Assembly: GCA_032622095.1 (NCBI GenBank)
Contig: CP136061.1
Span: forward strand, 16,430,440 to 16,494,439
Reading direction: 5' to 3'
DNA: 64,000 bases
From: Siphonodentalium dalli
Taxonomy: Eukaryota; Mollusca; Scaphopoda; Gadilida; Siphonodentaliidae
Below are positions 7,631 through 45,409 of this stretch, in pieces. The notes beneath the pieces are model-generated. The model ran no database searches. It saw only the letters and a program-made list of their open reading frames with translations, and was not told the DNA's origin. Both the position numbers and the translations under genes were made by a program. Position 1 is the first letter of the stretch. Each line of letters opens with the position of its first letter.

Positions 7631-7794
7631 CATTAATGCCCTAAATAATCGACTCCTTAACCACAGCAGAATTATCGGTAACTTTTCACCGAGAGCTTTC
7701 CGATGAGTGGCAACAAGCCATACTTCCGACTAAATCCTGAAAAGTTACCCATAATTCTACTGTGGTTAAGGAGTCGATTATTTAGGGCATTACT
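7631..7794. mobile_element. Mariner-type MITE, diverged copy
   Basis: Inverted arms AATGCCCTAAATAATCGACT and the reverse complement at 7770-7791 enclose GAGAGCTTTCCGATGAGTGG. It shares the core with the copies near 43.2, 47.8 and 49.6 kb. The outer CAGT ends are eroded. Confidence 0.7.
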
Positions 7795-8595: not shown

Positions 8596-8995
8596 TTAAC
8601 CCTTTACCCAACAGAAGGGCCCTGTGCCAATGCATTCTCTTATATATGCGAGTCGACCATAGGTCGCCTCGCATATATAAGAGAATGCATTGGCTTAACA
8701 CATTAAAAAATATATAATTGTTAAAGAATGTAAGAAAAAATGGTAAAAAAAGATTTTTTTTAGGCCAATGCATTCTCTTATATATGCGAGGCGACCTATG
8801 GTCGACTCGCATATATAAGAGAATGCATTGGCACAGGGCATAACTGTAACTATCACAATGTGGTCAAGGAGCCGGTTCCAATGATATCCATATTTGTATG
8901 GTTCTATTGAGACAGACCGAAGATATTTTAGGCTGTTGAAGCTTTATTTGGCCGGTTTTGGCCGGTTTTGGCCGGTTTGTTGGGTAAAGGGTTAA
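8596..8995. mobile_element. piggyBac-like MITE with TTAA target duplication and hairpin arms
   Basis: TTAA at 8596-8599 and 8992-8995 flank inverted ends CCCTTTACCCAACA. Known of piggyBac: TTAA duplication and CCC-starting TIRs. Inside are two inverted palindromic modules (8626-8694 and 8764-8834) and a triple GCCGGTTTTG. It has inserted into a repeat whose other copy lies at 1-240. No ORF. Confidence 0.8.
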
Positions 8996-11825: not shown

Positions 11826-13875
11826 TAGAGGCAATTATTGGAGTTTTTCTATGCTAACAATTCAAAAAAAATCCTCTCTAGAAAGTCAATATGTGCCATC
11901 AAAATGTAAAATAAAACAAACAACTAACTGAAAAACAATGCCAGGCTAGCCTTCAATTAAAAAAAATATCGTTATGCCAAACTGCAGTCTAACTAATAAT
12001 TATTGTAGTTTCAACAGTCTGTTGTGTATTCGAGTGAATTATTTTGTTTACTCACTTATCGATCTTGACTGGAATGATTTTAGCAAGCTGTTCACAGTCG
12101 TGCACTTCTCCACACAAAATGTTTCGTGTGAAGAAACAGACAGGAACATTATTATGACGAATTCAAGCCATCATGATACATGTACTAGTACAATAACTAC
12201 CACATTTTTAATCACACCCATTTGTAATTAATTGTACGCATATAGCGCACAACGGGGTGACACAAATGTGTAAACTAGCTTCCGAAATTGGTACCATACA
12301 ACGAAGAATGAAGTACCGGTATATGGCCTAACTTGTATTCTTTCAGAAACAGTTAAATTAGTTTTGCACGAAATTCCGCTCGCTCATTGCATTTCTGCAT
12401 AAATTAATCTCATTTCAAATAACTTTTATCGCATCAAAGTGCATTTTAGCCATCATTATTCGTTATATAATCCACATTCTAGTAAAGCCAGTTCATAATT
12501 CAGCACATTCTAACAGTTTTATTCCGTGATCGCTATTTATCGTAAAGGCTTAGGTAATTATCCAGCGTAATTTATCAACTCGTTACGCGATTGGCCGAAT
12601 TATTTCAAGCTCCACCCACCGCTGTCATCGGTAAGCGTCGATGGAGATGATCGGTCATGTGACCGCGTTGTGGTCATGTGATCGCACTCATTGACTGACT
12701 TCGGATATTTCCGCGATTTTTTTAATATCATAATAATATAAATACTATCTGCTCGATTTTGAATTTTCTTGGCGATATGTGTCTGTTAGACATATATTAT
12801 TATTATTATGACGATAACAAAAATATTTTTTTGAGAGACTAATTCCTTTAACTTGTTAATAAGGCACAACGCTTTCGTATAAAAAATCTACTGGACTGGA
12901 TTTCTTTCAGAGCAAAATACCACCTATAGAATCATGACCGACCTAAAATATGTGTCAAATACCTAAGAAATAGCGATATAAAACCAATAATGTCCACTCC
13001 TCAAAATATTAAAAAGGGTCTTTCGTCCACATTTTCTCTCTAAATTTTATGTTTTAGAATTGATATATATAGAGAAATTGTTCGGCCTTAATACCACGAA
13101 ATTTCTAGTCACTACTGTTTAGCTAATATGCTGTAAACCAAAATATGCATAAAAAGTTCATCAACTTGCGGTTGTATCTTTCGAACATCGAAAGGCTGAC
13201 TATTACTTTTATTAATTTTTGACCATTTTTTTTTTCGTTGAAATTCGAATTAAATTATAAATTATATTTAAAAAATAGTAACCGAATCACGAAAACTATC
13301 AACCAATGCGAGTGGCCTCACGGAGGATTATTTATAGTCTAGTCGTAATTCTCAGAAAAGACATTTCTAGAAGCATTTCCGCGGAAAAGTGTCAAACCAA
13401 CTTTTTTACAAATAATTCGAAGGTGCCGAACACGAATAGACTGCCTGTCGCCCGATTGGGTGAACATAGGGTTCAATAAAGGCTTTTAAAATCTTCGTGT
13501 TTTTTTTTTCGCTGGAGGGTTGTTGATACGGCACCGTACAACGTCATATGAAATCACGTAACTGGCCTTGAACATACTCAAACTTATATACTCCTCGCGG
13601 AACGTTCAAAGCCGCGTTGTATCATGATACTATCATCACAGTAATAATTCTGAAACATTAACATCATAGTCCGGGAGCCAATATGGGTACCCTGGCACCC
13701 GCCCCATGGGACTTAACATCATCCCACTCATTTTGTTCCTTATTCTGTCCTTCAACTTTTAAGCAATGTTAATAAGAAGAAAAAAAGTGGCCGTGTAGAC
13801 TTCGGACAAGATGGCGTCCATCCTGGCTGCCATTTTTCAGATCAGGCCCTAAGTCAGTTTTATGCAAATTATAGC

Positions 13876-14307
13876 GGGAACATCTAGTAAAATGTATAGA
13901 AATGTATATATTTTCGTGAAGCTAAGACATAGTGACACTTTTTTGGTGCAACCAAAATGGCCGCCGGAAGTTGAAAATTTGACGTTTTTTTCACAAATAT
14001 CTTCTAGATCAGTTCATATTGTTTGGAACTGGTTGAGTAATATGACTTTATTTTGTGTTTTGTATATTAACTGCTCATTGGAGCGGCGTGTATGAATACA
14101 GTATACAGTGATTTGCTGAATTGTCATGTGTGAGGTGTATATGCAAGTACGGAAGGTATAAGTGGTCGTGTGTGTGGGTATTGGTATATCTGGAAGGGCT
14201 CACCATTGGTGAGGTGTATATGTTACCTGGATTGACCCTATGGTCATAGGTATGGCGAATAGGTATACATGTAGTGGCTGTGTGGTCCATAGTGAGATGA
14301 ATATGTA
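13876..14307 (+). repeat. 432-bp direct repeat, left copy
   Basis: Identical base for base, as far as I can read, to 15445-15876 (offset 1569). It begins GGGAACATCTAGTAAAATG and ends GAGATGAATATGTA. The sequence spans the border between the flank and the 45-bp minisatellite. After it the LINE 3' end begins; after the other copy the minisatellite continues uninterrupted. Confidence 0.9.
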
Positions 14308-15444
14308 GGATAGGATATTTTATTTAAATATACACATATTAATGCATAATACATTTGACAAATATTATGTTGTATATTCGAGGGGTGGCATAGTCAGGCT
14401 AGACTGTCTTACTGCCACCCCCTTAAAAATGAAAAGATGTTATGATAGGCGGTCATGATTTCTTGTACAATGCACGGCTATATAATTATGTATCACAAAA
14501 TGGTTGTATTATATACATGGAGGGTATACGTCTAGATAGATTGTTTATTGGTTACTCGATGGTTTGTCTCTTTCTTGTCAGTGGGTTGTTCCTTGAAAGT
14601 CGAGTAGGAATGTACTGAGTGAGGTTGAGGATTGCGGTATAGGGGAAGTCACTTATTGAGGAGCTACTACACAGTCGGGACATCTTTGATTGTTGCATTT
14701 AATTGTTGCAGCATATTTTTTAATGCAATCGGCATGTAAACGTCGTTTAAATGTGTGTCTGGATTGGTATGATGTAAATTCGTTATCTAAGTTGTTCCAT
14801 ATGGTTGGAAAGGAATGAAATGGTAGTTGTTGGGACCAAGATGTTCTTGGTTTTTTTAAAAATAGTGGGTGCTTTTGTCGGGTGGCTGGTCCTGTTTTCC
14901 GTTTGGAAAATATGTCGGTAAATGATTCTATCAAACGCATATGATACCAATCATGCATGAAAACAGCCGCTTGTACTTTGTGGATGTCGTAGATTTTGAG
15001 TATATTTTCTTTTTTAAAGAGAGGTTCTGTGTGGCTTCTATATTTCTTATTACATATAACTCGTATTGCGCGTTTTTGAAGCATGAAAATTTTTTTGACC
15101 GCAGGGACGTGTCCCCATATTTGAACAGCGTAGACTAAATGGCTTTGTATTAGAGCATAATATAATGTTTTAAGTGCGCTACCAGGAAAGAAGTGTTTAA
15201 CTTTATTGATGTGGTATATGGCATTCACCATTTTTGAACAAACAGAGGACACGTGTTTTTTAAAAGTCAGGTTTTCATCTATATGGATTCCTAGGAATTT
15301 TGTGGAGGATTCGTGCTCAAGATTTCCTATCTTGTTTAGTTCCGTATTATTTAAGTAAACCTTTATAAAGTTCCATTTGTCATCATTGTTCTCTGGGTGT
15401 ATCAGCATATAGTTGCTTTTTTTAGTATTGATCACTAACTTATA
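14308..15444 (-). mobile_element. 5'-truncated LINE insertion inside a minisatellite
   Basis: Contains the C-terminal part of a LINE ORF2 and its 3' UTR, ending in iterated TATCC (GGATAGGATA on the + strand at 14308-14317). On both sides lie identical 432-bp direct repeats (13876-14307 and 15445-15876), read here as an exceptionally long target-site duplication. The element interrupts the left arm of the inverted minisatellite. It is related to, but distinct from, the intron 5 LINE in sequence and in its 3' repeat. Confidence 0.82.
14653..15444 (-). pseudogene. LINE ORF2 C-terminal fragment
   Basis: An open frame runs from the insertion border to 14653. Retrotransposon blocks include LVINTKKSNYMLIHPENN, STKFLGIHIDENLTFKKHV, LKTLYYALIQSHLVYAVQIW and LQKRAIRVICNKKYRSHTEP, ending CNNQRCPDCVVAPQ. 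The catalytic FADD part is absent because the copy is 5'-truncated. The ATG that can be placed upstream at 15507 lies in the flanking duplicated DNA and is accidental. No stop or frameshift interrupts the LINE part, so the insertion is recent. Confidence 0.85.
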
Positions 15445-15876
15445 GGGAACATCTAGTAAAATGTATAGAAATGTATATATTTTCGTGAAGCTAAGACATA
15501 GTGACACTTTTTTGGTGCAACCAAAATGGCCGCCGGAAGTTGAAAATTTGACGTTTTTTTCACAAATATCTTCTAGATCAGTTCATATTGTTTGGAACTG
15601 GTTGAGTAATATGACTTTATTTTGTGTTTTGTATATTAACTGCTCATTGGAGCGGCGTGTATGAATACAGTATACAGTGATTTGCTGAATTGTCATGTGT
15701 GAGGTGTATATGCAAGTACGGAAGGTATAAGTGGTCGTGTGTGTGGGTATTGGTATATCTGGAAGGGCTCACCATTGGTGAGGTGTATATGTTACCTGGA
15801 TTGACCCTATGGTCATAGGTATGGCGAATAGGTATACATGTAGTGGCTGTGTGGTCCATAGTGAGATGAATATGTA
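15445..15876 (+). repeat. 432-bp direct repeat, right copy
   Basis: Second copy of the duplication bracketing the truncated LINE. Minisatellite sequence continues directly after TATGTA at 15876, so this copy keeps the original right-hand context and the left copy keeps the original left-hand context, as a target-site duplication predicts. Confidence 0.9.
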
Positions 15877-16274
15877 TGCACTGAGTGAATGTATGATCGT
15901 GAATGTGGTGCATATGTATATATAGAGTGACTATATGGTCATGTGCCAGGTGTAGGAGTACACCTGGTGTTCATGCATGGTGAATCGTGGCTGTATCGTC
16001 ATTTGTGGTATGTACGGGTATAACCAAGTATGGCTGTATGCTCAGGTGTACGTGTATAAAGTGGGTGACTATATTGTCATTTGTGTGGTGTTTATGTACA
16101 TATGGAGTGACTGAGGTAATGGGTGGGTTGTACATGTGTACCTTGGGTGGCTATCGCTTTCCACAATAACTCAAGGATATGTTAATCAATAGAGAGGTCA
16201 TGTCAGAGAGTTCTCCACCTTGATGGTGTTTATGTACATGGGGGAAACGTTAAACATGGAAAGCGTTAGCCACC

Positions 16275-17960
16275 CATTATCACATAGTCATTCCATATAT
16301 ACATAAACACCACAGACACAACAATATAGTGACCCAATGTTTATACGTACACCTGACCCATTACCACGGATGACCATACATCCATGAGTCACAATGGAGG
16401 CCCACCGTGTATACTCCTAAACATGACCCATAACAATATAGTCACTCCGTGTATACCCATGCATTCACCTCACGATTGGTCATACGGTAATCCCCTGTAT
16501 ACCTATTCTCCACACATATGGTCAAATAGACATTCAATATATACGTCAACACCACAACAATGACCATAGAGTCACTTCAGGTACACATATGCACATCACC
16601 AATGGCCATATAGCCACTCGCTTCACATACCATCACCATGCCACCTGGTATACTCCTTCACCTGACATATGTCCATATAGTCACCCCGTGTGTACCTATT
16701 CAAAAAATTCATACATGCTCATGGTCAATCCTTTTATACATATTCACCTCACAATTGGCCATGTCACTCCATGTGTCCCTATGTGTCGCACCATAGCCGA
16801 ATAGCGACACACAATATACTAATACACCCCAGCTATGTCAGAAAAGTCACTCCATGTATGCATATGCACCTCACACATGGCCATATAGCCACTCGCTATA
16901 TACACATACCCCTCGCACATGACCATATAGCAACACGTGTGTATACCCGTATAACCTACACATGACCATACCGCCACGAGTCAGCATGCAGGAACACCAG
17001 GTATACTCATACACCTGACACATTACCATGTAGTCACTCCCTGTATAGATATTCATTACATTTATGATCATACAGTCACTCCTTGTATACCTACATGTAC
17101 TCATGTCACCATTGACCATACAGTCACTACATGTATACATATTCGACACCTAGTCATATAACCACTCGATATATACATATGCAGCCCACCCTAGACCATA
17201 GAGTCACTCCAGGTATACATATACACCTCACCAACGGCCATTCAGCCCTTCCAGATATACAAAAAACCTGCACACACGACCACTCATACCTTCCATACTT
17301 GCATATGCACCTCACACATGACAATTCAGCAACTCACTGTATAAGCATACACGCCATCCATGATCATACAGCTAATCCCTATACACCCACCAATGCTAAT
17401 ACATCCACGAGATATATAAATATATACCACAATGACACTCCATATATACCCACACGCTCGATAATGTCCATCCAGCTTACTCCAGGTATGCATATACACT
17501 TCAATCATGACCGTACAGTCATTCCATGTATACCTATACACATTTCCCGTAACCATAAAATAATTTATCCACCCACCCCACCCATGATCATACAGACAAC
17601 TCATGTACATCCCACCCATGACCTTACATTCACTCCATATACACATAGTCAACACATAGATGACCATGTAACTATATTCATACACCACATCAATGTCCAT
17701 ACAGGCACATCGGGTGCACCCGAACTGGATATACACAATCATACAACATACAGGCACTCCATTCATACCGATTCACCTCACACATGACCATGACCTCTCC
17801 CTGTATACCTATACATCTTACAATGGACAACCCACACATAACCATATAGTTACTCAGTGTATACATATTCACATCATTCATGACATACAATAACTCCCTG
17901 TATACATATTCACCTCAACTATGACCATAGAGTAACTCCCTGACTACCATCTTGGCATCC
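16275..17960 (-). repeat. Minisatellite, right arm, about 45-bp period
   Basis: Degenerate units of the form ACAGTCACTCCNTGTATACA followed by a TATTCACCTCAC-like segment and ATGACCAT recur about every 45 bp, the reverse complement of the left arm units. Since 45 is a multiple of three, long accidental open frames arise (for example 17131-17787). Confidence 0.8.
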
Positions 17961-19439
17961 ACCCTGCATCCAGTTGATATTTTTTGTTACCATAATGGAC
18001 CAGAATAGCCACAGATTATGGTTCATCTCAGTTCCGTCTCAACGTTCTGCCCATTTCCATTCAATAATATGGCCAGAATGACAAAAGAGGTTCTCGGCAA
18101 AATTCCATACTTTAAAATTAATTTGTCATGTTCCATACGGAACTGGGACAACCAGAATAGAACATATAGTTGTCAGTTAATTAACTAACACGTATAATAA
18201 CCAAGTGAGTCACAATTTACTACCTTTTCGGATAACACAGAGAATAATGTTCAGGATATATGTAAAAAAATAACTTTTTACAAATTTGGTTGCCATTTTG
18301 GAAGCCATCTTGAGCAATTTGGTCTATAGATACCATAGTGTGACACATTTAAGATAGACCAAAACAATAAACACATTTGAAACCAGAGAAGTTACATTTT
18401 ACCAATGATAGTTGCATTTTACTTGAAAAAATGGTCTATACCTGAAAAGTTAATGTTTGCCGATATTTATGTCGTTTTTGAGAGAAAAGTCCAATATTTT
18501 TGGTGATGTCAGTGGTAACAATAGTAACAATTAATCATGGTGCATCAGATATGTTAGTATTCAATGTATAGGAGGCAGAATAGCCAATTTTGTAAATCAA
18601 CCACAACTTTTAAGCGATTGTAGGACACGCTGGGGCAATATTTACCATTTTCCATATTTTGGCGGCCATTTTGGCAGCCATTTTGAGCCAAAGTAAGAAT
18701 TTTGGTTCCAATGAGTTGGAATATTCATAGGTAATGATATGTCTCACTTACACTACAAAGTTCTGTTCATTTCTTGTTGAAATATGACTAAAATCCCAAT
18801 TGTGATTTTTTTTTGTGAAATTTTATACCGTGTTCCAATAATTGCATATTTAATTGCTCCAATGATCAGTTAATATACAAAACACAATATAAAGTCACAT
18901 TACTCAAGCAGTTCCAAACAGCATGAACTGGTCTAGAATATATTTGTGAAAAAACGTCATATTTTCAACTTAATCCTGATTCACAGAACTTTCCACCGGG
19001 TGTGATTTCATGAAGAGCGTTTATTTAATAAATAACATAATTGTCCATATATGTATAGCAGATGATGAGATAGTTATGACAGAAAGGTCATGAGGGGTAA
19101 TTCAAATAACAAAGTATTCCCATATCAATGAGATTATATGTATAACGAGTGTGATATATGTCTCGATATTGACTTACTGTATTTTCGCGGCAATAAAAAG
19201 AGTATGTGACTTTAAGTTGATTTTATGGGTGAAATATGGGCCACAGGCAGCGACAGGCACCCTCATTGGATTCAGCATACTTGAATTATGCTAGAAAACT
19301 TAGTTTGATGCTTTTCCCCAAAAATGCCTCTAGGGTTCTAGTATTCCACAAATGTAGCTTTTCCGACCAGACTATTACGGGCTTGACAGATTTTCAAAAC
19401 ATAAGTTCCGCGAGAAGAGAAGCTTCATGTCCGTTTTCT

Positions 19440-28699: not shown

Positions 28700-29695
28700 T
28701 CTGAATATTATAGTCTTAGAGTCGTCAATTAGTTAAAGCCCATAAGTGACCGTGTGGCTACCTTATATTACAATTTGACGACAGTTGGTAAGTTAAGGTG
28801 TCAATTTGGAACAAATTCTCACTCAATTAGGATGGAAAGAGGTTGGAATAATAATTTGGATACTTAATAAGGCACTTTAGCCACGCCCTTGAAAAAAATT
28901 GATTTGATGATATATTATGATGTCATGGCGATGATGATTTTAATAATAATATGTTGATGTCGGATGATGACGATGGTGATTATGAAATGGTTACATGCAT
29001 ATATACATATATAATCAATAAGTTTATTTCTCATGTTTATAAATATTTGAATCGAAAATAAACTCGAAACAAACAAGACATGTTATAGCCGGAATCCAAT
29101 TATGTTCGTTCCGTTTCCGATTCCTAATTCACTGTTTTGACGGATTTTTGCAAATACAAAATGGCTGAAAGTTCGAGGCGGTAGAAATATGCTCTCGCTT
29201 TATGCGAAGAATGACACGACTAACATCTTAAACATGCATTCACACATAACTAGAAGTGTACTAGAAGCTCTTATCTTCAAGTATGTAGCATTTTTGGCTG
29301 TTAAATAATATTTTGTAGGTTGTGTTATCGCTTGTGAAAAGTCGAGTAAATGTCCATACCATGATTGGAGACGGAGTACTGCTTTCAGTGATATACAGTC
29401 CTGACTTTTATAGAGCTATGCTCTGATAATAAAAGTCAGGTTTACGGACTAGTTCTAATTGATCCCGGTTATTTATTTGAGCACTAAATGATAGCTTATT
29501 TATTCGGATTTCGTTTTAGCGCGAAATCCAAAAAGATCTATAAAGATCGAGTGTCATGTGATTCCATAGATTGCAACACCCCGCTCCGGTTCCATGGTCG
29601 GGACGCCTTTTTTCATACCAAAAGTCAGCTTACGAGCGACATCTCGGGGGAGGTAATGTCGCTAGTAATTGTCTGATCTGGAGATGTCCAATGCC

Positions 29696-30377
29696 ATTCA
29701 AGATTCAAGATTCAATAAGATTTATTTCGTATTCAATATAATTATAATACATATATATCAACAGGACCCCACAAAAAGTATAACTTGTAAGGGCAGGGCC
29801 CTTATGCTTGTATAATGATACAGTGTTATGTGTACGTATATTGGGTGAATATTATTGTGTGTATTATTGTATAGAAATGGGCAAGAAGGGGTGGGGGCAT
29901 ATGGTGGGAGGGGGGAGGGTTGTGAGATGGTGATTATAGTCATTTTTTTTAGGTGGTATGCTTTATCTGGTAGCCAATATGATTATCGTGATGTCTTTAT
30001 GCTGAGACCTGCGCGATCGTCTTGCAATTTTCAATAATGTGGGGAATACCAGTATTTAAGGTGATCAATGAAATATGGGTGTGAATACTGCTTGATTTGG
30101 TTGAGGAATTGGTTAAGGTTATAGACAAGTTGATTATTTTTGCACTGTTGTTCAGATGAGTGATAAATAGTAACACATGGAGGAAAAGTGGCATAAATTT
30201 GTTTGGCCTGTTCCTCACCGGGAGAGCTGGCCAGGAGAGGGAGGATTATACTATGAGAATAAAGAGAAGTTCATTAATTTCTGCCCCCTCTTCTGGACAG
30301 TCTCTGCCGTAAGGGACTGCTGGCTGGTATTGACTTAGTATATATAATAGGGGAGAGAATACATACAAACTGGATTG
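29696..30377 (-). other. 3' UTR of the intron 5 LINE
   Basis: Non-coding sequence between the ORF2 stop and the iterated TTGAATC end. It contains an AATAAATC-like signal just before the terminal repeat, and a G/C-rich patch (GGGCAGGGCCC at 29791-29801) that fits a terminal stem used for reverse-transcriptase recognition (inference). Confidence 0.6.
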
Positions 30378-32627
30378 TTATTTGATATTTGGGGTGTATT
30401 TATTAATGAAATGTGATTTTAGGTACTTATGATATTTGTCACTAGTTTCTACGCGAAGCTTACAGTCACATGGGAGTTCATTCCATAGACATCTGGCTCT
30501 GGTTGATATGACACTTCTTGCTTTTTTTGTTCTTCTGAATTCACAATACAGATTTGAATTTGCTTTGAACCGGGTATTGTGGTTATGGATATCATGTATA
30601 TTAGTAAATATTGAAGACAGCGATTTGGGGAGTTTCTTTTGATGGAAATCATGTAAAAAATTTATTAGTTGCATGTTTCCAATGTCATTCATCAATAGCA
30701 AATTGTGGTCCCTGCATATTTCTGGTATGCTTTTTTTTGCGTAAGATAGTGTGGCGATAGCTTTGTTTTGTATTTTTTCAAGATTTTCAAGGTTTTTCTT
30801 TGTTGTTGCACTCCATATGGCATTACAATATGTGAGGTGTGGGATAATCAGTACAGAATAGATTGTTTTCATTGTATCTCTGGGTATGAAATCACTGATT
30901 TTTCTCATGACTCCTAAATTTTTTGACAGTTTTTTAGTAATAGATTCCGCTTGCATATTCCATGATAAATTTTCTTCAATAATAATTCCTAGGAATTTAG
31001 TGTTTTTAACTCTTTGTATCTGATTTTCATTGATCTTGAGCTCGGGTAGGACAGTTATTTGTTTGCATAGATCTGTATTCGTAAATATCATGTAATAAGT
31101 TTTTTCTAGGTTTAGAGATAGTTTATTAGCAAGAAACCATTTGCTCATTGTCTCCATTTCTTTGTTGACTACATCATATGCCTTATTTATATCTTTATTA
31201 GAGTAAAATGCATTTGTATCATCAGCAAATAATATTAGATTCAGGTCCTTACAAATATTTGGAAGATCGTTCATATATATCAGAAAGAGTAGAGGGCCAA
31301 GTATAGATCCTTGTGGAACTCCACATATTATGTCTGTTTGTGAAGACAAGTGGCCTTCATATTGTACAGATTGTTTTCTATTAGTCAAATAGCTTTGGAA
31401 CCAGTTCAGTGCAACCCCACGACATCCATAGTTTTCAAGTTTATTTAGCATTATATTATGATTTATTGTATCAAATGCCTTTGATAGATCAAGGAATACC
31501 CCAATGGTGTGTTCTCTATTATCTAGGGCTTGGGTAATTTTCTCTAAGAGATCAGTTAGTGCCAGAATAGTTGAGTGATTCTTTCTGAAGCCATATTGAC
31601 TTCTATATAGCAAATTGTATTTGGTTAAGTATTTGTTCAGTCGGTTGTACATCATTTTTTCTAGGATTTTGGAAAATACAGGTAGCACAGAGACTGGCCT
31701 GTAGTTACTTAATGTGATTGGGTCTTTAGCTTTGAAAATAGGTACAACTTTTGCTATCTTCATGAGGTCTGGAAATATTCCTTTAGCAAGAGAAAGATTG
31801 CATATATGTGTAATGGGTTTAATAATAAATTCGCTACAATGTTTCAATATTGAACACTTGAGATCATCAATACCGGCAGCCTTTTTTGCACTGATATTTT
31901 TGAGAATTTCTATGACTTCAAGTTCATCTGTTGGTTGGATAAAGAATGAAGAACACTTAGGTTGATTAAGGTAATCTGCTGGATTCTTGTTAGATTTAAT
32001 TTTTGAAGCAAGGGTTGGTCCAATATTGGTGAAGAATTCATTGAATTTGGTAGCAATTTCCTCTTTGTTATTAATATATTTATTTTCATAAAAGAACTCT
32101 GTTACATTTTTGCTTCCCTTTTTCTTGTTGAGAATGTTTTTAATCAGTTTCCATGTGCCATCGATATTACCTTCATATTGTTGGAATTTCCTATGATAAT
32201 AGTGTTGTTTAGCAGTACGGATAATTAAATTTAGTCTATTCGTATACTTCTTGTATCGATCATTATTATAGTATGTTCTGTTCTTAATGAATATTTTATA
32301 TAGTTTATTCTTTCTTCTAATGGAATTCAGTATACCTGCTGTTATCCATGGATTGCAATGATTAGAAGGTTTGATTTTCTTTCTGATGTTTGGAAAATTA
32401 TTATTGTAAATGTTTGTTAATGTTTCGTGGAAAGAATTGTAGGCTTTGTTGCAATCCTGGTTGTCTAACACCATAGTCCAGTCAATTTTGGATATTTCAG
32501 TTATAAAATTTTCTTTGTTTCTTTTTGAATAGTCTCTTTGCCATATAAATACGTCTTTCTTATTCATTGTTTTAGTTCCATTGCTCAAAAGGAGATAGAT
32601 AGGCATGTGATCTGTAATGTCTTCCAC
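30378..32627 (-). CDS. LINE ORF2, reverse transcriptase and C-terminal part (749 codons open)
   Basis: It begins MEDITDHMPIYLLLSNG; the SDHxP-like TDHMP is the last endonuclease block, so the ORF continues the upstream frame after one frameshift. Reverse-transcriptase blocks are intact: SNYRPVSVLPVFSKILEKMM (about residue 307), DLSKAFDTINH (380), GVPQGSILGPLLFLIYMNDL (436) and the catalytic FADDT (467-471). The C-terminal region (NTKFLGIIIEENLSW, ILxxHLTYCNAIW) is typical of jockey/CR1-type elements. No RNase H domain was seen. The motifs required for activity look complete, so only the frame breaks upstream argue against function. Confidence 0.92.
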   Translation of the reverse strand: MEDITDHMPIYLLLSNGTKTMNKKDVFIWQRDYSKRNKENFITEISKIDWTMVLDNQDCNKAYNSFHETLTNIYNNNFPNIRKKIKPSNHCNPWITAGILNSIRRKNKLYKIFIKNRTYYNNDRYKKYTNRLNLIIRTAKQHYYHRKFQQYEGNIDGTWKLIKNILNKKKGSKNVTEFFYENKYINNKEEIATKFNEFFTNIGPTLASKIKSNKNPADYLNQPKCSSFFIQPTDELEVIEILKNISAKKAAGIDDLKCSILKHCSEFIIKPITHICNLSLAKGIFPDLMKIAKVVPIFKAKDPITLSNYRPVSVLPVFSKILEKMMYNRLNKYLTKYNLLYRSQYGFRKNHSTILALTDLLEKITQALDNREHTIGVFLDLSKAFDTINHNIMLNKLENYGCRGVALNWFQSYLTNRKQSVQYEGHLSSQTDIICGVPQGSILGPLLFLIYMNDLPNICKDLNLILFADDTNAFYSNKDINKAYDVVNKEMETMSKWFLANKLSLNLEKTYYMIFTNTDLCKQITVLPELKINENQIQRVKNTKFLGIIIEENLSWNMQAESITKKLSKNLGVMRKISDFIPRDTMKTIYSVLIIPHLTYCNAIWSATTKKNLENLEKIQNKAIATLSYAKKSIPEICRDHNLLLMNDIGNMQLINFLHDFHQKKLPKSLSSIFTNIHDIHNHNTRFKANSNLYCEFRRTKKARSVISTRARCLWNELPCDCKLRVETSDKYHKYLKSHFINKYTPNIK

Positions 32628-32686
32628 GAATATACCAGCATTGATAGATGAGGAGAGGAGACAGTTGGAGAATATGTTGTCAATAT

Positions 32687-33692
32687 TTAAAGGGTTGCAC
32701 TGAACTCAGTTATTCTAGTGGGTTTCGTTATTGATGGCAAGAACATAAATGACTTGAGTAAGTTAAGGAAGTTGTTTCCGCTGGTGTTATTAGTATTTAT
32801 GTTTATATTAAAGTCTCCCATTAGGAAACAATCTTTTTTCTCTTTATGTATCTGGGTTAATACTGTTTCAAGTTTTTCAAGAAAGTCATCGACATTAGAA
32901 TTTGGGCTTCGATATATACATCCTACTACTTGTTTTTTGTTTTTTTTGTTTTTGTCAGGAATTTCAATAAATAAGCTCTCAAAGTTCTCACTGAACAAAG
33001 ACAAGTCTGATCGTACCTGTGCTTCAATGCTTTCATGTACATAAAGTCCAACACCACCCCCACCTCTATCACTCCTGTGTTTCTCATATAAGCTATAGCT
33101 TCCCATTTGTGTTAGATCCACATGAGATTCATCCTTAAGCCAAGTTTCAGTAACGCCTATTAGATCAAATCTGTGTCTACAGGTATACAGGAAAGTGGAT
33201 AACTTGTCCATATTTTTTAATAGTGAACGTATGTTGAAGTGTATCATTGATGATGACACATTTTGGTTTATTATTTTCAATTTATCGTTAAATTCATCAA
33301 GGAGGGTATAGTTAGAGGAGTTTTCAGGATTTACTGGGTTTAAATTGTATTCATCATCATCCATTTGATGTTCTTCACGAAAGTCATCATTTAGAGTGAA
33401 TGGGTTCATTAAAAATGATTTATTTGAATTTGTGTGAGTATATTCTTGTTTCATGTCAAATAATGCCAGTCGAAACAGTGCCTCTTCCTCCATGTGATTA
33501 AATGGAAATAACGTCGCATTACAATGGTAGCAAAACCATGGGCTATCATCATTAGCTAGCTTCATGAAATCTGTTTTTAGTAGTTTAGAGCAGCGGAGGT
33601 GAATCCATTGATCACACAGGTCACAACATAACGCATCTTGATTTTTTTCTCACTGATTTGTTGCATGTAGAGCATGGGTATTTTAGAGGCAT
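32687..33692 (-). CDS. LINE ORF2, N-terminal part: PHD finger and AP-type endonuclease, frameshifted
   Basis: The ATG at 33692 opens MPLKYPCSTCNKSVRK, then a run of seven As shifts the frame. In the next frame ALCCDLCDQWIHLRCSKLL and SPWFCYHCN complete a PHD-type zinc finger (C-x2-C, C-x2-C, H-x2-C, C-x2-C). The endonuclease follows: FNIRSLLKNMDKL, LIGVTETWL, DRGGGGVGLYV, VVGCIYRSPN, FLMGDFNININ and PSITKPTRI, which are the expected APE-like LINE endonuclease blocks. The frame stops after TEFSATL at 32687. The continuation NIDNIFSNCLLSSSINAG lies in another frame, consistent with a roughly 5-bp insertion (TAAAT) before ATTGACAAC. Confidence 0.82.
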
Positions 33693-33792
33693 GGTAATGT
33701 GGTTGTATGGGGGGGGGTATGGAGGGGGCGGTGTGTGCGAGTGGTGAACTTTTTGAAGTTATTTGTCCAAATGTAGGGTGTTCAGTGTTCAC

Positions 33793-34509
33793 ATCAACGG
33801 AGAAATGGCTGCAAGAAAAAAAGAGTGATGGGTGTATTTTTAGATGAACTGGGAGATGACTTATTCAGTTTATGATTTCCAGAAGAGAATGTGTATTACG
33901 TAATGGATGGTTGGATATATGTTGTTTTCCATGCACATGCTTGACAAAACTCAGGAAGTATAAGTATATACATAATAACGTATCAATCATTAGTGCATGC
34001 AATTATAGTTTTGTGAGTTAAACACATACATGTAAGCTTATAGCATGCAGCAACAGATGAGTATGTCACAAAAACAAAATAATACATATATAACAAAGAC
34101 ACACAAGAACAGAGGCATGCTAGTCGATGGATTAACATGAGATGGAAGTATGCTGTCCAGAGTCAATGACACGATACGCAGTCACTATGATGATGAGAGT
34201 ATGTTGTCCAGAGATGATTATACACTGTCATGACGTTGAAAACAAAACATGCTGTCCAGAGATTATATCTTTCACAGTTAGAATGATGAAATAGGCATCC
34301 ACAGTAAATCACGAGACAGAAGCATGCTGACCAGAGAATATATAACACAGTCATGAATGATGATGATCCAGATATTTTATCATTCACAGTTATGATGAGA
34401 CATGCATCCATAAACGATCACGAGACAGAATCAGAGAATATAACACAGATATGAATGATGATGATCCATGAATAAGAATGTGTATGCATTGTAGTTTGAG
34501 TATCTATGT
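33793..34509 (-). repeat. Spacer between LINE ORF1 and ORF2 with degenerate repeats
   Basis: About 800 bp separates the ORFs. On the + strand TGCTGTCCAGAG or a close variant recurs near 34150, 34202, 34250 and 34327. ATGAATGATGATGATCCA occurs at 34354-34371 and again at 34451. The units are roughly 50-110 bp and degenerate. Such a long repetitive inter-ORF spacer is unusual for these LINEs; it may be a minisatellite expanded in this copy. Confidence 0.5.
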
Positions 34510-35293
34510 TTAATTGTCCACATACTCTAGCTCATTTAGCTCCTTTACTAGGATTTTTTTGCCATTGTTTATGAGTGCAATTATTTTGCCATCCAGTGTC
34601 CAGGAGTTTTTAACACTGGGGTGAGAATTGACATCTTTCAAAAGTTTCATGTTCTTTTGAGTTAGGCTCTCAGTTATTGCCAGTTTGGTGTTGTCGCCAT
34701 AGAGCTTGCAGTTTTTTAGTGCTCTTTTGGTCATGAACATTTGGTGTTTTGTGTCATGTTTGACAAATCTTACAATGATAGCCCTTGGTCTGTTTTTGTT
34801 ACCGGTAGGTTTCCTCCCAAGTCTGTGAGATCGGCCAATTTCCCCATCTTGGATTGGAACATTTAGCCCATTTCTGAAGACATTGAGAGCAATATCATTT
34901 GTGTGTTCGTTGTTTTGTTCGGGGACGCCATGAATTAGTAGGCAGTTTCTGCGGCTGTATTGTTCAAGGTTGTTGACACTCTCTTTGAGCTCTAAATTTT
35001 CAACACGCAGTCTGAGTAATTCAGTTTCCAGTTCCTCAATACGTTTAATAATGGGATTGTCATTTGATTCATCAACCGATTTGGAAAAGGAGTCATTATT
35101 AACAATAGCTTCAACAAGTGATGACTTTGTTTTTCCATCAGAGAGGATTTGCTCGACTATTTTTTCAGCCAAGCTTTCAACAAGTTTTTTTAAGACTCTC
35201 ATCTTTTAATAGAGTGTCCGTAATTGATTTTTTGAGATCTTGTTCGTTTACCTCTTTTGAGCTTTGTGTAGAAGTACGTCTGGATTGTGGCAT
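34510..35293 (-). CDS. LINE ORF1 protein (coiled coil plus RRM-like, L1ORF1p-type), one frameshift
   Basis: The intact part (35202-34510, 230 codons) begins MRVLKKLVESLAEKIVEQIL. A leucine-heptad coiled coil (IEELETELLRLRVENLELK, then VNNLEQYSRRN) is followed by an RRM-like nucleic-acid-binding domain (NCLLIHGVPE, IGRSHRLGRK, RAIIVRF) and a basic C-terminal part. The likely true start is the ATG at 35293 (MPQSRRTSTQSSKEVNEQDL). That frame runs into a stop because of a run of seven As (T7 on + at 35185-35191); six As would restore LKKLVESL. Known role: ORF1 proteins of this type bind element RNA and act as chaperones. Start choice is by alignment of the two frames. Confidence 0.8.
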
Positions 35294-35312
35294 GTTGCCT
35301 AATTTCGTGCAC

Positions 35313-35703
35313 TGACAACAACAACAGTTTTAGATTAGTAAAATCCCAGCTTTCCACTTCCAAGTGAGTTCATATATTACAACATTTGTTTCAATAGTCG
35401 TATATGCTACTTATATTAAACGAACAAGTGTGATATATAGCGGAATAACATTTATTTACAGACAATCTGGGTTTCCAAGATGAATATAACATTGAACACC
35501 AACAGCTGTAGAGGATTAGTTACAATAAATCGATTTGTGATCTGTTAATTTCGGAGAATTTAATCGAACTAAAACAGGTGGTTTTCCACAACAAAGCCTA
35601 TATTGAGCGATGTACAAATAATAATGTTGGTCGCGATAATAGTTCCTGGTTTCTCACAACAACGCCTCTATTTGAGCGATGTACAATAATAGTTCCTAAC
35701 ACT
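35313..35703 (-). repeat. Candidate BEL/Pao 3' LTR
   Basis: Starts TGTTAGG and ends TGTCA on the minus strand, about 390 bp. It lies just downstream of the pol stop and contains AATAAATG for polyadenylation. It carries a degenerate internal duplication of the CATCGCTCAA segment (35577-35613 versus 35655-35690). The matching full 5' LTR is absent, so boundaries are tentative. Confidence 0.45.
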
Positions 35704-35735
35704 CCAGCGCAAACAAGATATGGCATAATTAATGT

Positions 35736-36307
35736 TCAGTCAGACTCTTCGCTGTCATCGCGTAACCAAGTGTTCATTCTGTCAAGTGCTTTAATTGCTG
35801 CACGTTGTTTTGGTCTGTTCTTGTGCGCATTTAACGACTGGTCACTGGTAGATGGAAACGAAACCATGTCCGTGTCTGCGTGAATATCAGATGATTTATC
35901 GTGGGTGTTTGGAGCTATGTCTGCGATACTGGCAAACACTTCGAGTGGGTACAGTCGCGAAGAGGGCGATTCGTCACACCAGTTGATGTTTTTAATGTCA
36001 CAGAGCGTATATAGCCATCCCTACCACGATGTAATTCTAGAACAATTCCCAATCGCCATTTCAACCGTTTAACATTGTCCTCTTGAATTTGTACTATAGA
36101 TCCCAATTTCACGCATTCTCTGTTATCACCGATGAATCTATGAAACTCCCGTAGTACTGTCAAATACTCATGCATCCACTTCTTTCTAAATTGGTCAACA
36201 AGTGTCGCGCGGATATTAACTCGTCGTTTCAGATCACTGGCGTTCAGAGAGAACTCGGGGTCATTTAACTGATGGGTGTGGTAGTGTAGATACATATGTA
36301 TGTCCAT
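35736..36307 (-). pseudogene. BEL/Pao pol C-terminal region (DUF5641-like), frameshifted
   Basis: The frame beginning at 36307 reads into LNDPEFSLNASDLKRRVNIR, then FRKKWMHEYLTVLREFHRF, LGIVLELHRGRDGYIRSVTL and TGVTNRPLRDC, the C-terminal domain that follows BEL/Pao integrases. A frameshift then leads to NRPKQRAAIKALDRMNTWL at 35939-35736, the expected end of pol, followed by DDSEESD and a stop. At least two frame breaks make it a pseudogene. Confidence 0.8.
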
Positions 36308-36420
36308 TTAACAATTGGGATGGTGTCAAGGGCTCATTGTCACGAATGTCGTCTGAAATATATGTCAATGGTCGGTTATTTATTGTTGCTTCTACTTCAG
36401 TGAGTATTGTTCGCAATTCC

Positions 36421-37179
36421 TCAAAGTTCATAGAAACCACCCTGCCATGGCGCGCGTTTGGTTATAAACTGCCACTCGAGTCCCTTATTTGCCAGTGTGT
36501 CCTGGAAAGAACTGAATTGAAACAAGTCACGTATAATTGTATTCGCTGACAGAAATGTGGTTGCATTGTCTGAGATAAATTTTTTTGGTAGAGATCTCCT
36601 ACTGGCAAATCTACGCAAAGCTGCCAAGAATGAGTCAGTGCTCAAGTCCTTCATGAGTTCCAAATGAATGGCTCGTGTCACTCCACATGTGAATAAACAC
36701 ACATATACTTTTTCAGAACTATTTTCACTTGTAACATTGAGTGGACCACAAAAATCTACGCCAGTGAAATAGAAAGGTGGAACGTCTGAAACGCGACTTT
36801 CTGGTAACGGTGGTGGGTTCGGTAAACGATATGGGCTGCACGTGAGTCTCCGACAAATTACACAGTTTCTAAGAAGTGGTCTAACTAGCTGGCGTACCCT
36901 TGGTATCCAAAATGACGAGCGGAGAGCGGTGACCGTTGCATTCACACCAGAGTGGTGCGTTCTCCCATGAATATCAAGAACTAGCAATCTGGTAAACGCG
37001 TTCCTTTTTTGTAGCAGAACAGGGTGTTTTGCACTGTATGTCAGTGGGGAGTTCTCAATACGTCCCCGACAACGGATGATATTGTTATCATCCAAAAACA
37101 GTTGTAATTGTTCAAAAAGTTCCTGGTTTCTCACAACAACGCCTCTATTTGAGCGATGTACAATAATAGTCCCTAACAA
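36421..37179 (-). pseudogene. BEL/Pao integrase fragment
   Basis: Open for 252 codons. An HHCC zinc-binding region (HGRTHHSGVNATV, RNCVICRRL) is followed by the integrase core with the acidic residues in TGVDFCGPL, FISDNATTF and GGFYE. Immediately after the catalytic Glu the frame ends. The following conserved block ELRTILTEVEATINNRPL lies in another frame at 36420-36310, so roughly 25 codons normally present after FYE appear to be deleted. The first 20 codons fall in the 60-bp repeat that also marks the LTR start. Confidence 0.85.
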
Positions 37180-37818
37180 CAGCTCGTTATAGGTGTGTCC
37201 ATTGCTACTCTTATTGAGCCACCACAGTAGTCTTTATTTGTCCTATAACGACCGGAATATGCGAATAGAGCGAACATAGTGACTATGCGAATAAGTAATT
37301 AAGGTGTCGAATTTTGAATAAGTAATCAACCAATGTCACCTCAGCTTCGGATTCTGCTAAGTTATTAGTAACTTCGTGTCTGGGTGACGTTATTACTGGC
37401 AATATTGTTTTTATACATAAAACAGGCCACATGACATTTAATCCTTATATTTATATACATTTAGCTAAAAAGCCACCTTTGTAAATGTATTTAAATCGAA
37501 AAGTGCATCGTGACAAAACCAGCCCAAAATATCCCAATGCACCCTTGTCAAAAGTTAACACGAACAATTTCAAAACGAGATGATTTATTAACGGTCAATC
37601 CTGCGCGAGTCCAAATGCGCCCAAAACATTACGCGTTCTTCGTTTCCAAAATCAATGACGCGTCGATGTAATTATGGTTGCAATTATGACCCTCTTGCGC
37701 GTTCACCGAGAAATAATTGCAACTAGCCACGTGGGCGCCGACCAATCGGAATGCTGGATTTAGTGATAATCACACTTAGTATGTAAATATAAATTCTCCA
37801 ATACCGTTTCCTTTACAG

Positions 37819-38021
37819 CTGGCACGGTAAGGTTAAAGACGACAGCAGACATCAACTATGAGACATTGAATCAATACGCATATGACCTCACAATCAAGGC
37901 TTTCGATGGCAAGGAGTATTCCGCAACCACATTCACACTGACGGCAAACATCCTCAACGTCAACGAACCCCCGACATTCCAACAAGCCTCTCACTCAGTA
38001 AACGTCCCAGAACCTACTGCG
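37819..38021 (+). CDS. Cadherin-like gene, exon 6 (second half of repeat 3 and linker to repeat 4)
   Basis: Acceptor TTTACAG/CTGGCACG completes ATGTVRLKTTADINYETLNQ, with INYE in the position of the LDYE calcium ligand motif. YAYDLTIKAFDGKEYSATTF follows, and the repeat closes with ILNVNEPPTF, the DxNEPPxF linker. The exon extends into repeat 4 (SHSVNVPEPTA). The donor is TGCG/GTGAGT in phase 0. This is the best cadherin match in the gene. Confidence 0.93.
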
Positions 38022-39584
38022 GTGAGTGCTCATGATTCTCTGAAGCTATATTATGACATATATTATGAAAGCCCCTGCCTACCCCCAAACATTAGTAAAA
38101 CAAATCTGAATATCTGGAAATCTCACATTTTAACCCACGGGAGAAATATGTCGTTTTTTTTATTTTTATGACTGACTGTAATTGCCATAATGATTTGACT
38201 ATTTCCAACAGCAGTGGTTGATAAATGATAAGTTGGAATTTTCCGATAGTTGGGAAGTTTTTGATGTATTCGTTGGGAAATTGCAAATCAAAGAATGTGA
38301 AAAGGAAATTCCCGAGTTGAAATTTTGAAATTCAAGGAAATTCATTTAAAATTTAAAGTTGAAATTTGATAAAAAGCACTCTAGATCGCCACGCTCCTTC
38401 TGTAGAAACCGTTGAAAAATGGATATGTGACCCACTCTTGGTCGTCACAATGTGGGGGGGGGGGTGACCGTTGGCCAACCGCCAATAGCGGGTGATTGTT
38501 CCTTCTTGTTTCAGGGATGGGTCACTTACTTTGCAAAGTGATGCAATAACATTACCATTACTTGCTATTTTCTCCATTACAATTACCATTGCTTTCAAAA
38601 CTAGAAGTGATACAATACCATTATCATTACTTTCAAATGTATAGCATTACCATAGATTTAAACATGACAACAGTGTTTGGTGAATTCTTACCTACTCTAA
38701 AACTCCATTCCGACTTTATCCTGTCCTATTCTTTAATCTGATGTCATATTCCAACTACTTTATTGTTTTACCTTTTGTTAAATTTTCATGCTTTTCATAG
38801 ATATTTTTATTAATTTTATTAATATGCCATATGCTATAAGATATGAATATACCACGGTTACCAACGTCACAAGACTTGTTTTATGAGCAGCCATGGGGCA
38901 GATATATATTGTATTAGTCCACGATGTGACATCGCAGCATGCTCATCAATGTATATATGAATATGTACATACAGAAACAAATTGCACCAATGATATCCAA
39001 CTTTCCTTCGTATCCTATCTGATTGGTGAGGCCATATTCGCCTTTCGCTCTTAATAATCAGAATTACGTCGAATACCCGTGTATATTTATGTATCTTTCT
39101 ATATTGGGGTTGACCCTGTCACCTAAAGTCTCCAATAACTGTAATAATAAGTCACATTCTTGACAGTAAACCGGTTTATTCCATAGAAAACATTATATTT
39201 GTTATGAACTGCACAACTGTCACTTTTCCGACATATAGGTGCCCGTGGCATCATGTATTGATGTGTTGGGTGAAAACGATTAAAATAAAAATCCCACACT
39301 GCAACTGGAAGGGCGTAAAGTCTGCTATAGAAATATTTATACACGGGGCTTCGACGTAAACATAGCCGATGCCACTAGCTGGTTTAAGTCGAAGGAAACT
39401 TGGACTAACTTACTGCCTGAACATGTCTCCACCAAGGAACATGACTGTTGTTTGCTTATATTTCCCGAATATCCATCTAGATGAAAAATAGACCATTTCG
39501 AATTATACTGTTATCGGTGTTGGAAGAATCCAGTTAGTTAGAAATGGTTAAAAGAATAATGTATACATTTACTTTTCGATACAG
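38022..39584 (+). other. Intron 6: mostly unique sequence
   Basis: No ORF or strong repeat beyond a G-run at 38455-38464 and a short dispersed repeat near 39330-39445. That repeat is related to 45970-46390, where the second copy is interrupted by a foldback MITE, so this one acts as an uninterrupted reference. Confidence 0.5.
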
Positions 39585-40336
39585 GTAAGTGATCCCGCAT
39601 TCCTGGCATCGATCTGGACGATGACCGACCCCGATCTGGGGGACACTCTTACCTATACACTCGATAACTCGTGTCCATATTCCAACTTTTTAACGATGAA
39701 TTCCAACACAGGTAACACACGCTGGGCTCAAAGCGCATATAATATAGACAACCCAGACTTGCAGTCTCGAGATGAGAGCTGTCAGGTTACAGTAACGGAT
39801 GCAGCGGGCGAAACCGCCTCAACTACACTAAATATACATATCACGGACACAAACGATGAAATACCGACATTCGTACAGACGGCATACACGTTCGGCGCAA
39901 CAACAACGATAACGAAGGGAGACAATGTTGGCACCGTCGCGGCAACCGATTTCGACATCGACACTCCGAACAACGTTATCACGTACACTGCTGAAGGTTC
40001 ATGTGGGGTCAAGGCCGATGGGACAGTGTACTCAGACGTAACATTCACTGATCCTGTAACTCTGACATGCACCGTGTACGCATCAGATGGAGGGAATCCT
40101 CAATTGACGTCATCTGTCCCAGTGACCATCGTCGTAACCGATCCAACCAGTGGCACCGGTGGCGGGGCCGCGGCAAATCCAGCAGCAACGACAACAACGG
40201 AACAAGCATACAACTATTCGATCGGGAACGATGGGGACATTGTATGGATGGTTCTACTCGCTCTGGCTGGACTGGCTCTTTTGACAGCTCTGATTTGTGT
40301 GTGCGTCAGATACTGTCATCATATACGATGCTGCAA
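39585..40336 (+). CDS. Cadherin-like gene, exon 7: repeats 4 and 5, transmembrane helix, start of tail
   Basis: This is the longest exon (752 nt). It starts at ATACAG/GTAAGTGAT in phase 0 (VSDPAFLASIWTM), and TDPDLGDTLTYTL is the repeat-4 calcium turn. ITDTNDEIPTF links to repeat 5, which contains ATDFDIDTPNNVITY and ends VTIVVTDP. A Gly/Ala/Thr-rich stalk (SGTGGGAAANPAATTTT) precedes a hydrophobic span beginning IVWMVLLALAGLALLT at 40239, followed by RYCHHIRCC. Cysteine pairs sit in repeat 4 (SCPYSNF and SCQVTV) and repeat 5 (GSCGV and LTCTVYASDGG). The donor is TGCAA/GTGAGT in phase 2. Unspliced read-through gives AAG-TGA and a stop at 40338-40340, so a nearly tailless isoform is possible. 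Confidence 0.93.
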
Positions 40337-42244
40337 GTGAGTCTCGTTGTGTTAACAAATAACATGCCACGTGAGAAGCCAGGGAGGGGGGTTATCATAT
40401 ATCGTCGCGTGAGAACCAGAAGGTTCTAACTACCATTACTCAAGTTTAGAGAAAATCGACATTGAAATTTTGAGCACCGGAATTTCGTACTAAAACCCAT
40501 TTGTTATATGCGCGGAAGTTATATATTGTGCCCATGGTCAGACTTTATGTACATGTGAGGTTTCACGCCCGAACAAAACGGATTCACTGCGTGATATGTA
40601 AAAGTGTGTTTGCAGATAGAACCATTAGCACACAGAATGGTCAGATTATGTGCGGATCAGAATGCCCTAGTAGATAGGACACTGTGGCACAATAAATCAC
40701 GGATCTTCTCAAACTTGTGAGTTCTATCTACGATAATCTCTGGATAACCACACTTCAAATTGTATCCCGGGTTTTGACCTGGCACAAACCTCAGTCTGAA
40801 ATGAAACCATGTCAGATTGACGATTGTGTCCGGTGGGACTATTCAATTTTGTGAATTTTATAAAGATTGTTTGGTGCAATATAATGAAGGACTTCGACAT
40901 GAATAAGCACAACCCAATGGTCAGTTAATAGACAGGATCAGACATACGTATGTGTAACTTGTAACGTGTGGTACTATTGTATTGTATAAATGATTGTCAT
41001 TTGTGCATAAAAAGTTTCAGCATTATATACCTGATTTATTAATATCAACATCACAAGCAATGATATACAACAAGCCGAGATATTTTCAAAAACTTAATTC
41101 TCCCCCTAAACTGATTTCTATCTGAAAATACCTGTCAAGTCAGAATAGCCCGTTTTCATTCCGTTTTGTCAACCAACTCAGAGTCTTATCATATATAATG
41201 GAATTAGCATGTATCTGAGGAGGTTTGTGTTATGGTAGAGTCTATTTTGTTTAAATATTTGATTTTTTGGGGGGTAAATTAGCTAAAATTTTGTTATTTT
41301 TATAGGAAATGTTTTTGAAAAATCCCATGACTTTGTCGGTTTTATGCATACAGCTGCACAACATGCACCACAATAAGCACACATTCTTCCCCAATATCAG
41401 ACATGAAATGCTATAATCGTGGACCAGACCATAATTAAGAAATAAAGTCAAACTTAACCCTACCCCAAGATAGTGTTCTCAATGCTTTCAATTTTATACT
41501 AAACTCGAAAGGTCATTCGTACTAGTTGACAGAAGATTCATATAACAAATTGCAATTGTTCTGCCCACGGATTATGTAATCTCATCTCCACTGTCACTGT
41601 AAAATGTGATGGTGTCGGTCAATAGAATTTCTGTGCAGCAGGAAGAATGGTTCAAACAACGCAGGCTGTCTATAATTGGCCGTCCATCCATAAATTGCTA
41701 CACTGGGAGTGGTTGATTTGGCAACGGTTGCAAGTCTCCACTGTTTTGCTATCATATCAATATGCTCTTTTTGAGTGTAGAATTAAAGATTCCTAACACG
41801 GTGGAAGTGCAGAAAGATCAACTATACCTTTTGCTGATTCTCGAACTTCTGCTGGAAAATTACCCACCTAGCTTAATTAACTTTTCTCGAATGTGGACCA
41901 TACATGTATAAGGCTTCCAAAATGGCAACCATTTTTTACATATATCTCGAACATTATTCTCTGCGTTTCCGAAAATGTAAATGTAGCAAATTGTGACTAA
42001 CTTGGTTATTTTACATGTTAGCCAATCAACTGATAACTAAATTATCTATTCTGGGTGTCTCATTTCATTATGGGGAATAGCAAATAAATTTTAAAGTTGC
42101 CTTATCTGTTTTTTTCGAGAACCTCTTTGATACTGGCTATATATTTTTAATAAATGGGCAGATCTTTGAAATGGAACTGAAATTAATCATAATCTGTGGC
42201 CATTCTGACCTACTAGGGTGAAAATTGATCAACACGATATAGGG

Positions 42245-43920: not shown

Positions 43921-45409
43921 TGGGTCGCTATTGCTTTCCACAATAACTCAACGATATATTAATATATAGTTCACCATGTTGATGGCGTTTATGCACGATG
44001 GAGGAAACGTTAAATGATTCCCCCTGATAATAGTTAATCAAGTTTTATGCTAATGGGCAGGTGATTCAAGTCAGATCTATCGAGATGTCAAATATACAGA
44101 AGAATACACTTATTGGGTTCCATTCCATCGCGGGTAGTGACTACCTTCCAAAAACGAAAAAGACGATCAAATATATATTTTTAGGAACGAATTGGGTTTT
44201 GGACAGTGACACACTTAACTCAAAAATAATATTTTTGTTTAGCTAATTCACCCACACAAATCAAATATTTAAACAAAAATAGACTCTACCATAACATAAA
44301 CCTCCTCAGATACATCCTAATTCCATGATATATGATAAGACTCTGGGACAAGTAATGACAACGGCTCAGCATGGCTTTGTGTTTTTGAGCTAAATCGGGA
44401 TTCATTAGGTCTAAGGTCAAATCGGGCAGTGCAAGTTGATACACGAGACAGAACTCGAAGGTCCAACTCACACGCATAACATGACGAGTCCTTAAATCAC
44501 ACTATCAAACTTAGATGGGACACTATGAAGTAACACATCAATCGCTCGCCCATAGCGCAAGAACGCTCTATCTACACGCACAAGGTCTAAGTGGAAATCC
44601 TAGGATTGAAAATCACAATGTCAGAACGTTCTATCTACAATATAGCTCACAAAAGTGTCTTATTGACTTGATCTTGATACTTTTGTATGTTGAACAGGTA
44701 AATAGTATTCAAGGGAACATTTATATTGGGCTATATCGTAATAATGTTGAAACGTTATAATATTTATCTCATATTATTGTCGAGATAACACAATTCACAT
44801 TTCGTCGGCAGCCATTCGCCAAACTTACATCACGTGACGCGGATCTGCCAATCCTATTGGCTCTGTAGATAGAACCATCTTGCTCTACCAAATAATGCCG
44901 ATTGGAGATAGAACTTATTTGCACAGCATTTTGTGTGAAAACTGGGACTCGATGTCACGTGATCATGCGTTTAACGGACAGATTATGAGCTGCCGGTTCT
45001 ATCGGTACCAATAACTCATTTTCCCGCCAAAATACAGTTAGAACCTTCTGGTTCTCACGCGACGATATGGCAAACGCCAGGCAGAGTTATATCCCATCGC
45101 TTCGCTTAGACATCACTGCCAGAAGGACATTTGGTAAGGAATTCTGACATGATGTTAGTTCTTATGTTTTAGGACGAAATTTGTCTTTGTCTGGTCCAGA
45201 TCATATTGTTCTTATCAATACCGAAAGAATTACCATTATGGCAAAGTTGTGGTGTCAAAATAAGATAATAGGTGACTAAATATAATTCCGACGACACGTA
45301 AAAAATAGATGTATCGGTCCGCAAAGTACCATCCTTGTAGCAGTGATCTATCACAGTGATAACGACGGAGAGCGCGCTGCATGGATTTTGCATATATGGG
45401 CCTATTATG

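Follow-up and report, generated by a model that had tools for sequence, protein, structure and literature searches.

In the Siphonodentalium dalli genome, a truncated LINE lies between two identical direct repeats of 432 bp. This structure was probably produced by one recent, 5'-truncated, target-primed LINE insertion with a target-site duplication of about 432 bp. A target-site duplication should leave identical direct repeats whose inner ends coincide with those of the element, and such repeats are found here. The outer border on the minisatellite side is also native, and both results support the proposal of the first-pass annotation that the repeats are a target-site duplication. Features of the locus are listed below, with positions counted in the window (the whole 64,000-nt stretch of DNA that was analysed).

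13869-13875, + strand: TTATAGC in the upstream flank; TTATA is also at the LINE 5' end (15440-15444), a possible microhomology (from the sequence; chance about 1%)
13876-14307, + strand: left 432-bp repeat copy, the probable target-site duplication (exact maximal repeat; adjoins the LINE 3' end)
14102-14307, + strand: start of a degenerate minisatellite of about 42 bp within the duplicated stretch, left copy (inverted similarity to the right arm, 81 nt at 91% with 17263-17343)
14308-14317, - strand: presumed LINE 3' terminus TATCCTATCC, equal to two GGATA units on the + strand (from the sequence at the repeat border)
14308-15444, - strand: 5'-truncated LINE, C-terminal part of ORF2 and 3'UTR (open frame to stop; homology to ORF2 of a fuller LINE)
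14381-14422, - strand: predicted 3'UTR stem-loop with a 10-bp GGGGGUGGCA/UGCCACCCCU stem (RNA fold; limits read from the fold)
14653-15444, - strand: ORF2 remnant, 263 codons and stop, from near the end of the reverse-transcriptase (RT) domain (open frame; alignment start)
15445-15876, + strand: right 432-bp repeat copy (exact maximal repeat; adjoins the LINE 5' end; runs on into minisatellite downstream)
15877-16140, + strand: minisatellite past the right copy, the native right flank (alignment to relatives; far end approximate)

The direct repeat and the enclosed LINE fragment

The first-pass annotation had described 13876-14307 and 15445-15876 as apparently identical and as enclosing exactly a 5'-truncated LINE. 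Alignment of the two copies bore this out: 432 of 432 bases match on the + strand, forming a maximal exact direct repeat with an offset of 1,569, and the repeat ends are the two ends of the LINE. Outside the repeat ends, identity drops to 0.2-0.45 in three 20-nt blocks on either side. The same annotation named identity running past the LINE borders as evidence against its reading; no such identity was found, apart from a 5-nt, out-of-register TTATA. An ordinary tandem duplication extending past the LINE was rejected, as identity stops at both insert borders.

The window was compared with itself using blastn (word 16, E<=1e-6), and pairs of at least 40 nt and at least 90% identity were printed. 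The 432-bp pair is the longest of these, and an exact match of 432 nt is beyond the reach of chance. Two other plus-strand pairs exceed 100 nt: 7691-7794 with 49542-49645 (41.7 kb apart) and 43248-43355 with 49540-49648 (6.2 kb apart). These two pairs come from a dispersed repeat. Blastn and self-comparison of the 64,000-nt window showed the 432 bp in two copies and no third.

The insert between the repeats (14308-15444, 1,137 bp) is a piece of a LINE in minus orientation. In that direction it opens with YKLVINTKKSNYML, continues as 263 open codons to a stop, and ends in a 345-bp 3'UTR whose terminus at the repeat border is TATCCTATCC. A second LINE in the window, fuller and also on the minus strand (30378-35205), has three ORFs:

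34510-35205, - strand: ORF of unassigned type, with no Pfam match (ORF and Pfam)
32687-33649, - strand: ORF carrying an endonuclease domain, plus a PHD-finger match slightly under the Pfam cut-off (Pfam)
30378-32705, - strand: RT ORF of 775 aa in a different frame (RVT_1 match)

The different frame of the RT ORF suggests a frame break inside ORF2 of this fuller LINE. Exact direct repeats of at least 10 nt that might flank it as a duplication were sought between 29300-30400 and 34800-36800; one 12-mer was found and taken as chance; the ends of this LINE are provisional.

BLASTP of 261 fragment residues against the 775-aa ORF of this relative (30381-32705) gave 30% identity over 183 aa of its C-terminal part (E 2e-18), and the insert encodes LINE ORF2 protein. 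The alignment starts at residue 528 of the relative, in which RVT_1 matches residues 329-576; the fragment therefore has lost most of the RT domain. The LINE is thus judged to be 5'-truncated, a feature that is frequent but not obligatory in LINE insertions, and with most of the RT domain missing, the copy was presumably dead on arrival. No Pfam match was obtained in the ORF2 fragment (251 aa tested, E<=1), as expected because the piece starts near the end of the RT domain. The enclosed LINE may belong to the L2/CR1-type clade, a tentative placement for a fragment that lacks most of the RT domain.

The 3' end of the insert was reported earlier as an iterated repeat. A short terminal repeat is present and consists of just two GGATA units (+ strand). 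Further copies of the enclosed LINE were absent from the window (blastn, E<=1e-3), so its 3' end was judged from this terminal repeat and is placed provisionally at 14308. The 3'UTR region 14308-14470, folded as the minus strand (163 nt), gave -33.9 kcal/mol with a z-score of -2.41, and 3 of 200 shuffles folded equally well. At gathering score, Rfam had 0 matches in the window. Protein searches for relatives of the LINE and its target gave 8 pattern stretches in viral_contigs and 22 in genome_contigs; none of either set was confirmed. Short DNA patterns from the LINE and target had no exact match in these same two collections, and no relatives were found in phages. As none of the three is a collection of animal genomes, these negatives carry little weight.

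Target array and joints

The duplicated 432 bp consist of about 226 bp of other sequence followed by about 206 bp of the degenerate 42-bp minisatellite. Beyond the right copy, the minisatellite leads to a central box near 16.14-16.28 kb (16140-16280; GGGTGGCTATCGCTTTCC...GGAAAGCGTTAGCCACCC), on the far side of which it continues, with its orientation reversed, to about 17.94 kb. Another array of the same family, the second, occupies about 42.2-43.9 kb (outer limits by eye for both). Because the minisatellite continues outside the element and is common to the opposite arm and the 42-44 kb array, the repeats were rejected as LTRs or as a terminal repeat made by the element itself. The idea of tandem LINE copies made by template jumping, in which the 432 bp would be 3'UTR, was rejected for the same reason.

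Positions 13968-18971 as a whole form a large, diverged inverted arrangement of the minisatellite family around the central box, which looks, by its layout, like a foldback or composite mobile repeat. The second family member spans 41912-44000; its 41912-42607 part is 72% identical, inverted, to 17609-18306, and by eye it has a related central box at its right end.

The two outer borders of the repeat pair were compared with these relatives. The stretch 15619-16140 includes the right outer border (15876/15877) and can be aligned over it with the opposite arm, reversed (score 401), and with the second array (score 165); an ungapped inverted match of 15832-15937 with 17155-17260 (106 nt, 73%) also spans it. 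The opposite-arm alignment has two small gaps, of 4 and 2 nt, no more than ten bases from the border, but none at the border itself. The array is thus continuous across the right border, which is native and old, and the LINE interrupts an older array there. On the left, 13968-14084 matches 18971-18856 of the right arm (91%, inverted), where strong similarity stops. No relative spanning the left outer border (13875/13876) was found in the window, and a looser alignment further out was unconvincing. The first-pass annotation suggested that the minisatellite target may have favoured the event; of the two insertion joints, it contains only the 3' (first-nick) one.

On the + strand, the 3' joint reads GAATATGTA/GGATAGGATATT. 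If this is the priming site, the last two bases of the primer (TA) match the end of the GGATA unit, which, at two bases, fits weakly with annealing to a TATCC-repeat tail. The 5' joint reads AACTTATA/GGGAAC on the LINE side, against AAATTATAGC/GGGAAC in the upstream flank. Both have TTATA ahead of the repeat, 2 nt out of register, with GC following it on the left and absent on the right. With this shift, the duplicated stretch could also be read as about 437 bp with a 2-bp loss.

Microhomology is frequent at truncated L1 5' joints, and annealing-type 5' joining of LINE inserts has been described (PMC4245944). The shared TTATA hints at microhomology-assisted joining, although chance may account for it: among 200,000 random position pairs in the window, 1.0% shared 5 nt at a shift of no more than 3 nt, in a test devised after the match had been seen. 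Taken as microhomology, TTATA would fit the annealing-type joining of that report, and this likeness too could be chance.

Origin of the duplication and precedents

A single insertion would proceed as follows. The LINE nuclease would nick the + strand inside the minisatellite, between ATATGTA and TGCACT of the empty site, and the TATCC-repeat tail of the RNA would be reverse transcribed from the nicked end, with 14308 as the true 3' end of the element. Reverse transcription would arrest inside ORF2. Joining of the cDNA end at a point 432 bp upstream of that nick would then leave the 432 bp between the joints on both sides of the LINE. The upstream joint may have used a distant second nick, or the cDNA end may have annealed to TTATA in the flank and been extended by copying. 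These two routes give the same sequence product and are indistinguishable here. A broader possibility is that this LINE family regularly pairs the end of its cDNA with microhomology lying hundreds of bases upstream, instead of using a nearby second nick, and that duplications of hundreds of base pairs are normal for it; we give this a small chance.

Several observations argue for a single insertion. The 432/432 repeat ends abruptly at both insert borders; the enclosed DNA is the 3' part of a LINE, carrying a stop, a predicted hairpin and a short terminal repeat; minisatellite relatives align over the right outer border; the TTATA at the 5' joint resembles truncated L1 5' joints; and duplications of this length have published precedent in ZfL2-2 and L1. 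Against it, 432 bp is an outlier among usual LINE duplications, the 3' repeat has only two units, no relative in the window spans the left outer border, no second family copy there fixes the ends of the LINE, TTATA is two bases off register, and small gaps (4 and 2 nt) lie near the right border in the opposite-arm alignment.

The main rival gives the same final structure in two steps. A longer LINE would first have entered at 14307/15877, duplicating little or none of the target. A later microhomology-mediated unequal exchange or template switch with a LINE-free homologue, from TTATA in the LINE ORF2 to TTATA in the upstream flank, would have removed the 5' part of the LINE and duplicated 432 bp. 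TTATA on either side of the joint is in keeping with this history, which also accounts for the 5' end being the ragged one. It requires two events and a LINE-free partner, however, and in a variable species two alleles would be expected to differ somewhere over 432 sites, whereas 0 differ; we regard it as unlikely. Exact repeats beside a minisatellite are also error-prone in assembly, and an artefact could be suspected, either a spurious duplication or the collapse of an array whose unit was repeat plus LINE. By reasoning, a simple mis-join of one non-duplicated insertion cannot yield the two inner joints (14307/14308 and 15444/15445), each of which has to be carried by reads of its own, but a collapsed array escapes this argument; the window also has 0 N letters, a weak argument in the same direction, and the chance of an artefact seems slim. 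Tandem arrays are common in the window (36 rows), so a 432-bp tandem duplication could have existed before the LINE arrived exactly at its junction. Such an insertion must hit one exact base, and a third 432-bp copy is absent from the window, which leaves this history very improbable.

Usual LINE duplications are 5-30 bp (PMC5223499). In the human and chimpanzee genomes, L1 target-site duplications peak at 14-16 bp (PMC2912911), and in DT40 cells ordinary duplications are 15 bp for L1 and 5 bp for ZfL2-1 (PMC4245944). As in those short duplications, the S. dalli direct repeat adjoins both element ends, but theirs are about 30 to 90 times shorter than 432 bp. Long duplications have been recorded for human L1. 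In HeLa cells, at most 10% of events had duplications over 100 bp. NER-deficient lines had a median duplication of 1,495 bp (range 5 bp to 5.3 kb), and the complemented line one of 14 bp (range 2 bp to 1.6 kb; PMC5223499). The authors of that report propose a more distal, unrelated nick for long L1 duplications and cite Gilbert 2002/2005 and Symer 2002 for large ones. The S. dalli locus shares with these cases direct repeats of more than 100 bp to kilobases around an insertion, but L1 has a poly(A) tail and its large duplications are most frequent in repair-deficient cells (PMC5223499), whereas the tail of the S. dalli LINE is a TATCC repeat.

ZfL2-2 is, by its name, a zebrafish LINE of the L2 clade. 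In wild-type chicken DT40 cells, 24 of 25 insertions of ZfL2-2 carried alterations no larger than 20 bp, and the remaining one had a 1,228-bp duplication (PMC2666801). This case is alike in that a LINE prone to 5' truncation has long, directly repeated target DNA on both sides; it was an engineered insertion in cultured cells with 1,228 bp (PMC2666801), compared to a natural one with 432 bp here. The length had been called exceptional at first, and 432 bp is unusual, but both L1 and an L2-type LINE have documented long duplications, which range from more than 100 bp up to kilobases. In the titles and abstract openings of open-licence literature, no long LINE duplication from a mollusc was noticed, which carries little weight.

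With 0 of 432 differences between the copies, the 95% upper bound on divergence is 0.7%. Together with the still-open ORF remnant, this indicates a recent insertion, as the first-pass annotation reasonably argued, unless gene conversion kept the copies alike. Read as one insertion, the locus shows, in nature, a LINE integration outcome that is rare but already described, and as a single case it leaves existing knowledge unchanged. How LINEs make the second joint is unsettled, and a natural, recent and cleanly readable long duplication provides exact joints for comparing distant-nick and annealing models. It also warns that long direct repeats around truncated LINEs are not automatically segmental duplications.

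Other elements in the window

Several further repeats and frames were recorded. Inverted repeats of 252 bp at 47662-47913 and 49542-49789 are 96% alike and 1.6 kb apart; pieces related to them lie at 7.7 kb and at 43248-43355, the latter within the second minisatellite array. They are perhaps a terminal-inverted-repeat DNA transposon family. Open frames at 37770-40340 (+ strand) resemble, by eye, cadherin-type exons; the two frames tested with Pfam (37770-38171 and 39552-40340) had no match at E<=0.001. A 61-bp direct repeat (98.4%) joins 35641-35701 to 37118-37178, and the latter copy lies inside an integrase ORF (36421-37233; Integrase_H2C2 and rve). A perfect 76-bp inverted repeat with a 69-nt spacer is present at 8619-8839.
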